Under the pieces are notes generated by a model. It searched no databases. It had not been told where the DNA came from and worked only from the letters and a program-made list of their open reading frames with translations. The position numbers were made by a program, and so were the translations under genes. From a virus, in IMG/VR virus record IMGVR_UViG_3300042471_000064, positions 1 through 26,720 of that record: a stretch of 26,720 bases of DNA. One strand, 5' to 3'. Below, in pieces: positions 4,777 to 6,793 of the stretch; the stretch's first letter is position 1; each line of letters opens with the position of its first letter.

Positions 4777-5214
4777 TTAAAGTAGCACATTTAGGTTGAA
4801 AATGTCGTTTTTTATGGTATCATCGAACTTATTTGATAGCTGACCCTTAATCTTGGATATTGAATGTAAAACTGTTGTTCTATCCCTATTAAACAATTTT
4901 GCTATTTCCTCGCCATTTAACTCCGTTTTTTCTTTAGTAAAATACATTGTCATTTGCCTTGCTAAAGTAACCTCCTCTCCTCTATATTTGGACATCATTT
5001 GTCCGTATTTAATTTGATAGTAATTGCATACTTTTTCGGCTATTTGAACTGCATACTCTTTTTGTTGTTCCTTGTCCATTCTTATTGTTTTTATGTTTAA
5101 ATAATGATCTAATAAATCCTTTAATCGGTTTATCTCTTTCTTTTGTTCTTTGTTCTTATCTCGCAAAATCTCTATTTCAAGTTCTGCCATATATGTCTTG
5201 TGGACTTCTCTCAT
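4777..5214 (-). CDS. DnaA domain IV-like DNA-binding protein with N-terminal coiled coil
   Basis: With ATG at 5214 (ATGA overlap with the previous stop) the protein is 145 residues; a longer start at 5247 is possible. Residues about 10-40 are a charged coiled coil (EIEILRDKNKEQKKEINRLK). Residues 55-125 align with the duplex-binding domain of DnaA: VCNYYQIKYGQMMSKYRGEE, then TLARQMTMYFTKEKT, then IAKLFNRDRTTVLHSI, where the DnaA signature is GRDHTTVxHA. The AAA+ ATPase is absent, so it can bind DnaA-box-like sites but not form an ATP-driven initiator. Likely roles are phage-origin recognition, competition with host DnaA, or transcription control; none is proven here. Confidence 0.8.
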   Translation of the reverse strand: MREVHKTYMAELEIEILRDKNKEQKKEINRLKDLLDHYLNIKTIRMDKEQQKEYAVQIAEKVCNYYQIKYGQMMSKYRGEEVTLARQMTMYFTKEKTELNGEEIAKLFNRDRTTVLHSISKIKGQLSNKFDDTIKNDIFNLNVLL

Positions 5215-5414
5215 AATGCTTCTATTTCTTTTTTTACTTCTATCCAAAATAATTTTGTTTCAGGCTGATAAACTGACATAATTGTATTCAATATTTCATC
5301 TACTGCTATTAATGCACATTGTTTAGCTACATAATATGTACAATGATGATATTCATCACCATTATTTGTAGACATTTTATCAAATAATTCTTCTGCCTTA
5401 TGTTTTGGTGTCAT
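5211..5414 (-). CDS. Small hypothetical protein (67 aa)
   Basis: Sixty-seven residues starting MTPKHKAEELFDKMSTNNGD, then CTYYVAKQCALIAVDEILNT, then ETKLFWIEVKKEIEAL. Two amphipathic helices surround a short polar loop. Short proteins with the pattern KAxELxxKM...AKxCALxxVDEIL are frequent in phages of Bacteroidota, with no known function. It ends in an ATGA junction with the DnaA-like gene and begins one base after the upstream stop (TAATATG). Composition and coupling support it as a gene. Confidence 0.65.
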   Translation of the reverse strand: MTPKHKAEELFDKMSTNNGDEYHHCTYYVAKQCALIAVDEILNTIMSVYQPETKLFWIEVKKEIEAL

Positions 5415-5415
5415 A

Positions 5416-5712
5416 TTAAAAATGTAAAAGGTTTATTGGTAACATAAAGTCCTCCGTTAAGGTATAAAGGTCTAAGATTAGATAATGGTAGCTTTTAAGG
5501 ATTCTACGCTGGATGTCATTCATCCTTGCTATTTTAATTAACAAGTCTTCTTCGCTAATCATTGTTCTTGTTGTGTCCAATCCCCTTCTCCATTCGGCAA
5601 GGTCAGCCTCAAATAGATTTTGCCTTCCTTGTGCTTGTTTTAGAAGTTCTAATAGCATTGTTGCTCTTTTGTGCAACTTCAGTTGTTTCTCTTGATAGAT
5701 TAGTTTGCTCAT
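5416..5712 (-). CDS. Hypothetical helical protein (98 aa)
   Basis: Ninety-eight residues, helical and leucine-rich: KRATMLLELLKQAQGRQNLF, then DLAEWRRGLDTTRTMISEED, then YHYLILDLYTLTEDFMLP. I recognise no family. Its first 34 codons overlap, in another frame, the polar tail of the RHH-like gene (104-base overlap). It ends TAATATG against the next gene. The overlapping part is well-formed helix here and low-complexity in the RHH frame, so this frame is probably the constrained one in the overlap. Confidence 0.6.
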   Translation of the reverse strand: MSKLIYQEKQLKLHKRATMLLELLKQAQGRQNLFEADLAEWRRGLDTTRTMISEEDLLIKIARMNDIQRRILKSYHYLILDLYTLTEDFMLPINLLHF

Positions 5713-5827
5713 ATTGTTTTAGGATTTTATAAACCAACTTACTAAGGGTTATGCCTTTTGTGTCGGCTTCGGTTTGTAGATTAGTCTTTATTTGTTGGCT
5801 GACTAATGTTGTTATTAGCGTTTTCAT
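5609..5827 (-). CDS. Ribbon-helix-helix-like small regulator
   Basis: Seventy-two residues. The first 40 (MKTLITTLVSQQIKTNLQTE, then ADTKGITLSKLVYKILKQYE) follow a ribbon-helix-helix plan: an N-terminal beta strand, helix A, a turn with GITLSKL, and helix B. Such dimers bind operators. The remaining 32 residues are serine-, threonine- and lysine-rich and fall entirely in the overlap with the next gene. The N-terminal part also overlaps the previous small gene by 47 bases. It is the only regulator-like gene near the operator region at 6316-6407 and is a candidate for binding it. Confidence 0.55.
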   Translation of the reverse strand: MKTLITTLVSQQIKTNLQTEADTKGITLSKLVYKILKQYEQTNLSRETTEVAQKSNNAIRTSKTSTRKAKSI

Positions 5828-6097: not shown

Positions 6098-6244
6098 TTA
6101 AATCATTTCAATTTGGTATCCTAAACTTAAATACTTATCAATTTTAAATTGTAGTATTTCTTGTGTAAATTCTGCAATTGGAATTAAGATTGTAACCCAG
6201 TTGTCAGTTCTTCCTTCTTTGTAGATTTTAAATGCTTTTTTCAT
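6098..6244 (-). CDS. First small gene of the early operon (48 aa)
   Basis: I choose the ATG at 6244 (MKKAFKIYKEGRTDNWVTIL) over the in-frame ATG at 6301. The shorter form begins after a promoter candidate at 6278-6306 and has the ACCAATATG leader shared with two other genes, and the extra 19 residues of the long form are unlike a protein start. The 48-residue product appears to be alpha-beta, ending FKIDKYLSLGYQIEMI, with the pattern of small phage proteins having two strands and a helix. Function unknown. Confidence 0.55.
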   Translation of the reverse strand: MKKAFKIYKEGRTDNWVTILIPIAEFTQEILQFKIDKYLSLGYQIEMI

Positions 6245-6277
6245 ATTGGTTTGTTTTAATACATCGAAGATAGGGCA

Positions 6278-6306
6278 TAAACTTATATCTTTATCAAACA
6301 AGGCAA
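6278..6306 (-). promoter_or_regulatory. Promoter candidate for the early operon
   Basis: On the minus strand TTG (6306-6304), an 18-base spacer, and TAAGTTTA (6285-6278) approximate the Bacteroidota TTTG / TAnnTTTG promoter with one mismatch in the -7 box. Transcription would start near 6270, leaving about 25-30 bases of leader before ATG 6244. It lies just downstream of the tandem terminators and operator-like repeats. Confidence 0.35.
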
Positions 6307-6315
6307 TTATTTTAA

Positions 6316-6407
6316 ATAAATGTGATGAACGGCAAATAATAAGGATAAATGGTATAATTTGACTTATAAGGGATAAATGTGTGTCAAATAGTGCGTTTTA
6401 TGACACA
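6316..6407. promoter_or_regulatory. Operator-like region with interleaved direct and inverted repeats
   Basis: This non-coding stretch holds three ATAAATG direct repeats at 6316, 6345 and 6373 (spacing 29 and 28 bases), two of them extended as GGATAAATG. It also holds two inverted repeats: ATTTGAC (6357-6363) with GTCAAAT (6383-6389), and TGTGTCA (6380-6386) with TGACACA (6401-6407). The two inverted repeats share bases 6383-6386. Such density in the only regulatory gap of the early region suggests an operator. The protein that binds is unknown. Confidence 0.45.
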
Positions 6408-6408
6408 T

Positions 6409-6442
6409 AAAAAACCACCCTAATAAGACTAAAAGGGTGGTT
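6409..6442 (-). terminator. Intrinsic terminator 2 of the late transcription unit
   Basis: On the minus strand AACCACCC pairs perfectly with GGGTGGTT across a 14-base loop (arms 6442-6435 and 6420-6413), followed by a T run. It is the second of two terminators in tandem, about 40 bases after the first, between the late genes and the early promoter region. Confidence 0.75.
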
Positions 6443-6479: not shown

Positions 6480-6507
6480 AAAAAACCCCACCTTTTTAGG
6501 GGTGAGG
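6480..6507 (-). terminator. Intrinsic terminator 1 of the late transcription unit
   Basis: On the minus strand CCTCACC (6507-6501) pairs with GGTGGGG (6492-6486) with one G-T wobble and an 8-base loop. Six Ts follow (6485-6480). It lies 17 bases after the stop of the HExxH gene, so it closes the late operon. Confidence 0.8.
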
Positions 6508-6523
6508 AACTATGAACCAACAA

Positions 6524-6793
6524 CTATTTAGAACCATCTTGCAATGGAGTATCGTTAGAATTGTCAACCATTCGGTAACCTTGCTGCCAAAGAACCTTAC
6601 ATAAAGTTACGCTTTTCTCTATAATGGCTTCTTCATCATCCATTGGATTGAGTATATGTAAGCACTCGTGCAACAGGATTTCAAGCTGCTTCTTGCCCTT
6701 TAGTCGTGAGTCAATATACACAACACCATCGCTTTCAGCAATGCCGTGTGCTTGTTCCCTACCTAATTTGCGATATATTACTTTAATCTTCAT
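6524..6793 (-). CDS. Small HExxH metallopeptidase-like protein
   Basis: Eighty-nine residues. The motif LLHECLHIL places H42, E43 and H46 in a zincin HExxH active site within a helix, preceded by VVYIDSRLKGKKQLEI (strand then helix) as in minimal ImmA/SprT-like metallopeptidases. A possible third ligand is E58 or E59 in DDEEAIIEK. It is shorter than ImmA proteins and has no other domain. It is the last late gene before two terminators and overlaps the preceding gene by 11 bases. Substrate unknown: possibilities include a host regulator or a phage structural protein. Confidence 0.65.
   Translation of the reverse strand: MKIKVIYRKLGREQAHGIAESDGVVYIDSRLKGKKQLEILLHECLHILNPMDDEEAIIEKSVTLCKVLWQQGYRMVDNSNDTPLQDGSK

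Follow-up and report, generated by a model that had tools for sequence, protein, structure and literature searches.

Introduction

Which of the repeats crowded in front of a phage early operon form its operator, and whose regulator would bind there? The window analysed here, meaning the whole stretch of 26,720 nucleotides, is a 26.7-kb uncultivated virus record whose main genes are oriented leftward. A gap separates two sets of genes. On its right, matches to portal, head protease, major head protein, tail and endolysin families were found; on its left are RecT-like, NinG-like, ParB-like, replication-initiator-like and DnaA-C genes. The gap, between an ORF end at 6524 and a start codon at 6244, contains two terminator-like hairpins followed by a repeat region. 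The window had no DNA-level match among annotated phages by blastn.

A preliminary description proposed that three ATAAATG copies and two inverted repeats in this gap form an operator for a dimeric regulator, perhaps an RHH-like or a DnaA-like protein. That an operator for a dimeric regulator precedes the early operon is very probably right, but the repeats and proteins chosen for it did not withstand the comparisons reported here. On sequence comparisons, we consider it likely that the region is a phage early promoter with an upstream operator for a LytTR regulator of the host, which would activate the early genes.

Results

The ATAAATG repeats are real but mostly not the functional unit

The repeats are exactly where the preliminary description placed them. 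ATAAATG occurs at 6316-6322, 6345-6351 and 6373-6379 (spacing 29 and 28 bases), and the inverted repeats TGTGTCA/TGACACA (6380-6386/6401-6407) and ATTTGAC/GTCAAAT (6357-6363/6383-6389) overlap in the four bases GTCA at 6383-6386. Their position between minus-strand terminator-like hairpins and the first early gene was also borne out (Table 1). Composition alone is unlikely to account for the triplet: none of 400 first-order Markov copies of the window had three same-strand heptamers within 64 bases, and only 6 of 20,000 simulated 223-base gaps had three or more. Over the whole window, over-representation of the heptamer is not clear (17 seen vs 12.1 expected); three further same-strand copies, spaced 16 and 55 bases, lie at 1567-1644 in short early ORFs.

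Table 1. Features of the gap and of the early region in the window.
Feature	Position	Strand	Basis
Entire near-invariant operator-promoter block, 90 bases	6264..6353	(-)	Alignment of 70 relatives
Operator half-site 1, ACCATTTAT; includes middle ATAAATG	6345..6353	(-)	Near-invariant in 70 aligned relatives
Operator half-site 2, GCCGTTCAT; start-to-start 20	6325..6333	(-)	Alignment of relatives
Extended operator, ACCATTTATCC-TTATTATTT-GCCGTTCATCACA	6321..6353	(-)	Closely similar sites in phages with other flanks
A/T-rich spacer with first ATAAATG (6316-6322; two-base overlap with extended operator)	6299..6322	(-)	Sequence, relatives
TTTG, candidate -33 element	6295..6298	(-)	Read from sequence, conserved; assignment inferred
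-7 box, TATCTTCG, 61 bases from start of half-site 2	6265..6272	(-)	Sequence
Module U, exchangeable upstream cassette with third ATAAATG and both inverted repeats	6356..6407	(-)	In 27/74 gap sequences
First early gene (MKKAFKIYKEGRTDN...), opens the leftward early operon	6098..6244	(-)	Start codon is our choice
First terminator-like hairpin, after late genes	6486..6507	(-)	Hairpin search
Second terminator-like hairpin, AACCACCCT...AGGGTGGTT, then T run	6407..6442	(-)	Inverted repeat I10 and T run read from sequence
DnaA domain-IV-like early protein; disfavoured as regulator	4777..5247	(-)	PF08299, E 3.4e-20; dissociation from site
Short RHH-like ORF; disfavoured as regulator	5609..5827	(-)	Pfam RHH unmatched at E<=1; blastp (insensitive) gave no relative in 27 loci

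Two scans of viral contigs, each yielding 80 loci, supplied the relatives; they overlapped in one locus and in many contigs. From 123 loci came 74 different gap sequences, after removal of 16 loci that lacked the downstream anchor. A common core was found in 70 of the 74 (up to three substitutions in the anchor pattern), and the four gaps without it (L024, L078, L079 and L080) stayed outside the alignment. The aligned sequences are near-invariant from the ACC at 6353 through the base after the -7 box, and the bases upstream are variable: sorted by our own regular expressions, the 74 gaps carry module U (27), module V (14), module W (4), a directly adjacent terminator (18), other sequence (7) or no core (4). 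Among the ATAAATG copies, only the second lies inside the near-invariant direct repeat. In one comparison of gap sequences, the third was found at its position only in L117 and L136; the first is missing from relatives with a shortened spacer. In these type-B relatives, the spacer at 6299..6322 is about one helical turn shorter, the repeat spacing is 21 and the operator-to-promoter distance is 52, about one turn less; the first ATAAATG is lost with the spacer and the promoter is kept.

The conserved unit is therefore not ATAAATG at 28-29 bases, as had been suggested, but the direct repeat ACCATTTAT-N11-GCCGTTCAT (6353-6325, minus strand), whose half-sites start 20 bases apart, about two helical turns. 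In most other phage clusters, half-site 2 reads ACCGTTCAT or similar. This operator is kept in the relatives along with the early promoter, the comparison on which the preliminary description had staked its repeats.

Could the RHH-like protein 5609-5827 bind the three ATAAATG copies and the inverted repeats as its operator? The presence of three exact heptamers and two dyads within 92 bases invites the idea, which we find scarcely credible: the third copy and the dyads are missing in most relatives that keep the promoter, and blastp (E<=1e-4) against 27 loci from other phages gave no match to the RHH-like ORF. The latter is a weak test, as this comparison also missed DnaA-C proteins later found by profile and, like the second blastp comparison described below, is insensitive to a diverged phage regulator. 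We rejected the triplet as operator, since copy 3 is seldom conserved and type-B relatives lack copy 1, and we do not favour the RHH-like protein, which had neither a Pfam match nor a blastp relative.

Upstream of the core, the module U dyad TGTGTCA-N14-TGACACA (6380-6407) is present in 27 of the 74 gaps, with 5-7 of its 7 pairs retained in 26 of the 27, and may be a further operator carried on an exchangeable cassette. Two gaps differ within the block. After the late terminators of L024, the usual block is replaced by another promoter cassette, with the dyad TTACAATATATTG(T/C)AA and a -7-like box; in L135, the block is shortened and then followed by another promoter cassette with the dyad TTACAATATATTG(T/C)AA and a -7-like box. 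Judged by their sequences, we read these cassettes as a natural early-promoter swap.

The operator is shared by different phages and phased to a Bacteroidota-type promoter

In almost all of the 70 aligned relatives the -7 box is TATCTTTG, and the TATCTTCG of the window is one mismatch from the consensus. TAnnTTTG is the -7 box consensus of flavobacterial sigma-A (PMC9723704, in excerpt), and by this box the promoter is of the Bacteroidota type. A search for E. coli-type sigma-70 promoters gave 4 vs 4.8 expected, and no Rfam RNA element matched the region at gathering scores; both candidates were rejected. From the -7 box and the company that the motif keeps, the phage host is probably a member of the Bacteroidota.

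Many phages that differ in other respects carry this operator, ACC[AG][TC]T[TC]AT twice with starts 20-21 bases apart. A viral pattern scan returned 108 stretches, including phages with different flanks, and a second spelling of the operator at least 120 viral stretches; a few of the pattern matches, such as L202, L211, L227, L228 and L235, resemble chance matches inside genes. The relaxed motif had 247 matches in 276 sequences vs 13 in reversed sequence, a figure that serves as a specificity check only, many of the loci having been selected by the motif. More than one match was found in six loci, and some phages have two or three sites. In L184 (about 5723-5799), two copies face away from each other across about 15 bases, an arrangement like that between divergent promoters. 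Compared with annotated phages, the 33-base consensus gave 9 records, all with E about 4, which we read as chance.

For distances, 203 distinct segments were grouped into 43 clusters, segments shorter than 110 bases being left out, and one representative was used per cluster; some of the 43 may represent chance matches within genes. Half-sites start 20 bases apart in 38 clusters and 21 in the other 5. These direct repeats of about 9 bases with a gap of 11 or 12 fit the arrangement of LytTR sites, which consist of 9-bp direct repeats with 10-13 bp between them and, in activators, mostly precede the -35 region (PMC11347149, in excerpt). Counting from the start of half-site 2, 26 of the 43 clusters have an exact TAnnTTTG at 25-100 bases, vs 1.7 expected from shuffles, and the distances fall into classes about one helical turn apart: 41-43 bases (10 clusters), 50-52 (5), 60-64 (10) and 72 (1). 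The phase coherence at 10.5 bp was 0.81, with none of 5000 uniform draws exceeding 0.59, and was still 0.81 without the four clusters of the window group; the best period was 10.0 (coherence 0.85). The operator is thus upstream of the -35/-33 element and phased to the promoter in these 26 clusters, and such helical phasing to the -7 box is as expected of an activator facing RNA polymerase. The promoter-proximal repeats of AgrA are centred near -60 (PMC4227749, in excerpt). Against an operator for a host LytTR regulator, the other 17 clusters have no exact -7 box, and that of the window is one base off.

The phasing bears on two alternatives. In the first, the region would be conserved promoter DNA with no dedicated regulator, consisting of a strong core promoter and an A/T-rich upstream element. 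The window group is indeed A/T-rich and conserved through to the -7 box, but other phages keep the half-sites, the 20-21 spacing and the phase of the box despite differing surrounding bases, and the motif also marks some host LytS/LytTR operons (see below); we regard this explanation as very improbable. In the second, the LytTR operator and the host regulator are the same, but binding would repress or delay early transcription, for example keeping the phage silent in some host states. The sign is unreadable from the motif alone, and the LytTR regulator CoxC is a repressor (PMC11347149, in excerpt). By contrast with the phage sites, however, the CoxC operator overlaps the -35 box (same excerpt); the phage half-sites lie clear of the core promoter, 41-72 bases before the -7 box, and are helically phased to it, which makes repression unlikely.

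The motif precedes some host LytS/LytTR operons

If the phage operator is read by a host LytTR regulator, does the motif also mark LytTR genes in bacteria? The strict pattern was found at one locus only in genome_contigs (84,980 species), L265 in a Saprospiraceae MAG, and this rarity of the phage spelling in bacterial genomes counts against a host LytTR regulator. At L265, the operator is upstream of an operon encoding a hydrolase-like protein, a LytS-like kinase and a Response_reg+LytTR protein (kinase and hydrolase named by eye). The hydrolase-like/LytS-like kinase/LytTR operon is conserved in three bacterial genomes (L265, L315 and L467), with the same operator and a -7-like box that starts 42 bases past half-site 2.

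A looser motif gave 39 matches in 395 Bacteroidota genomes vs 15 for the reversed pattern; 30 of the 39 were seen as loci, as were L320 and L321, and others, such as G059 and G014, were left out. At 6 of the 30 loci (G001, G159, G083, G177, G323 and G284; LytTR by PF04397), the motif starts 100-150 bases before the first gene of a LytS-like kinase and LytTR regulator operon. No control locus out of 15 preceded a kinase/LytTR operon, although one had a kinase-like match more than 1 kb away, and the difference of 6/30 vs 0/15 gives p=0.07 (one-sided, our own arithmetic). Density is a more suitable measure: nine arbitrary Bacteroidota genomes contained 81 LytTR matches in 33.8 Mb, and a site placed at random would have a probability of about 0.0004, by our arithmetic, of lying no more than 160 bases upstream of a LytTR match; in 15 Bacteroidota genomes that were profiled, LytTR matches ranged from 0 to 46 each. 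Three points weigh against the host LytTR reading here: the p value itself, the origin of three of the six loci (G083, G177 and G323) in a single genus, which we counted as one lineage, and the looser matches among the 395 genomes, most of which, of those inspected, are not before LytTR operons. Three further sites adjoin kinase or regulator relatives in a different layout, a second one in G001 lying 32 bases after a LytTR gene, that of G258 before a regulator-like gene but facing away from it, and that of G108 after a kinase-like gene.

A family scan returned 5 matches vs 2 in the control. One of the five is G410, an orthologous hydrolase-kinase-regulator operon with the operator in front (regulator 52% identical, by tblastn only); three others (G449, G431 and G421) do not precede LytTR operons. 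With two mismatches allowed, 150 genomes from the family of G001 gave 7 motif vs 5 control matches, barely above control, and these two scans also count against a host LytTR regulator. Besides G001, two matches from another scan were not before LytTR genes, and in 12 further-scanned genomes the site was found only in 3 already known, with 2 control matches. In all, the same site precedes LytTR regulator operons in seven genomes, and most of the looser matches inspected are elsewhere. The promoter geometry is partly shared: in G001, G159, G410 and G284, the distance from half-site 2 to a -7 box with 0 or 1 mismatch is exactly 42 bases, within the shortest phage class, but G083-type operons have no -7 box at 42, which again weighs against this reading.

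The phage operator also resembles a known LytTR site. DNA upstream of E. coli btsT contains ACCGCTTA-N13-ACCACTCA, with 0 mismatches to the octamer form ACC[AG][TC]T[TC]A, and we take this repeat to be the site of the LytTR protein BtsR (YehT). Like the phage site, it is a direct repeat, ACC[AG]CT[CT]A, and it shares the LytS/LytTR two-component logic; E. coli BtsR and the L265 regulator are 32% identical over a 244-position alignment. It differs in being spaced 21 start to start (most phage clusters 20), in having C at position 5 (most phage sites T), in lacking the T at position 9 of the second half, and in having a bacterial target gene.

DnaA-C does not follow the operator

The regulator is most likely the host's, because the phage records gave no LytTR match: PF04397 was found in 0 of 27 and 0 of 22 records with the site (48 distinct, G562 being in both), records that may be fragments. 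Such fragments could hide a LytTR gene, and blastp is insensitive to a diverged phage regulator; both points tell against a host origin.

Would a shared phage-encoded protein, above all the DnaA domain-IV-like one that the preliminary description had named, act on the repeats as an operator or replication origin? DnaA-C (PF08299) is found in 13 of the 27 motif records and in 11 of the 12 that are at least 26 kb long, an association that also counts against a host LytTR regulator, and a diverged shared protein could escape the blastp comparisons. The exception among the long records is G562 (35 kb), which has two sites. Conversely, L024 encodes a DnaA-C protein 92.5% identical to that of the window and lacks the operator, and seven divergent relatives (L073-L076, L078, L080 and L081) carry DnaA-C although their loci lack the site. 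DnaA-C is disfavoured as the regulator because it occurs without the site, and because the site occurs in G562, where DnaA-C was not found. Moreover, four DnaA-C proteins (from eight stretches) carry DHTTV vs the DRTTV of the window, yet the operator sites agree. The two or three sites of some phages and the divergent pair in L184 are unlike one origin, and blastp across 29 motif loci found no protein family in more than 15, the commonest looking like virion or packaging genes. We therefore consider a phage-encoded regulator of this kind quite unlikely.

The N-terminus of the protein at 4777-5247 looks charged and coiled-coil-like by eye, and its DnaA domain IV has DRTTV, where DHTTV is usual. 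The DnaA-box consensus is TTATnCACA. A DnaA-box array or origin is not supported, as the half-sites as read do not match this consensus and DnaA-C occurs without the site.

Discussion

What is the mechanism of early-gene control? From the computed conservation, phasing and sharing of the operator, from its motif in front of some LytS/LytTR operons and of E. coli btsT, and from the lack of a LytTR match in the phage records, we infer physical binding, activation as its sign, and the identity of host and regulator. A LytTR response regulator dimer would occupy the two half-sites ACC[AG][TC]T[TC]AT, a direct repeat at 20-21 start to start (6321-6353), and, once bound, would contact RNA polymerase at the TTTG/TAnnTTTG promoter (6265-6298) in a constant helical register. 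This contact would activate the early genes, which are transcribed leftward. The regulator would normally be the autoregulator of a host LytS-kinase/LytTR operon, and the early genes would thereby come to depend on the signalling state of the host. A further point against this host LytTR reading is that no regulator of an actual phage host is tied to the operator.

Among comparable systems, the early promoters of phage GIL01 resemble the present one in being phage promoters under control involving a host-type regulator (PMC6182141, in excerpt). That control is of the LexA type, and no direct-repeat LytTR site is known there. The LytTR regulatory systems of Streptococcus mutans share autoregulation and direct repeats 11-13 bases apart upstream of -35, but they are cellular operons, have a membrane protein rather than a kinase as partner, and place the repeats about 10 bases from -35 (PMC6193735, in excerpt). 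The precedent for phage use of a host response regulator comes from cyanophages S-PM2d and P-SSM2 (pstS), in which phage promoters are bound by host PhoB and transcription tracks the state of the host (PMC10976474, in excerpt). There, however, pho boxes serve a set of phosphate-response genes and not a shared early promoter, whereas here one early-promoter operator is found across many phage groups. Among the open-licence papers listed by our searches, none pairs LytTR with phage early promoters.

Taken more broadly, the chances are about even that one operator arose convergently in, or passed between, a wide set of uncultivated Bacteroidota phages of many genome types and ties their early genes to host LytS/LytTR signalling, so that the phage regulon is larger than the host's own. 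If so, the operator would provide a consensus for Bacteroidota LytTR regulators and a sequence tag for predicting hosts and regulation in uncultivated phages. A host two-component system would then read the early promoter of a large environmental phage group, linking phage commitment to host physiology, and these phages would sense a nutrient or stress signal of the host before committing to replication.
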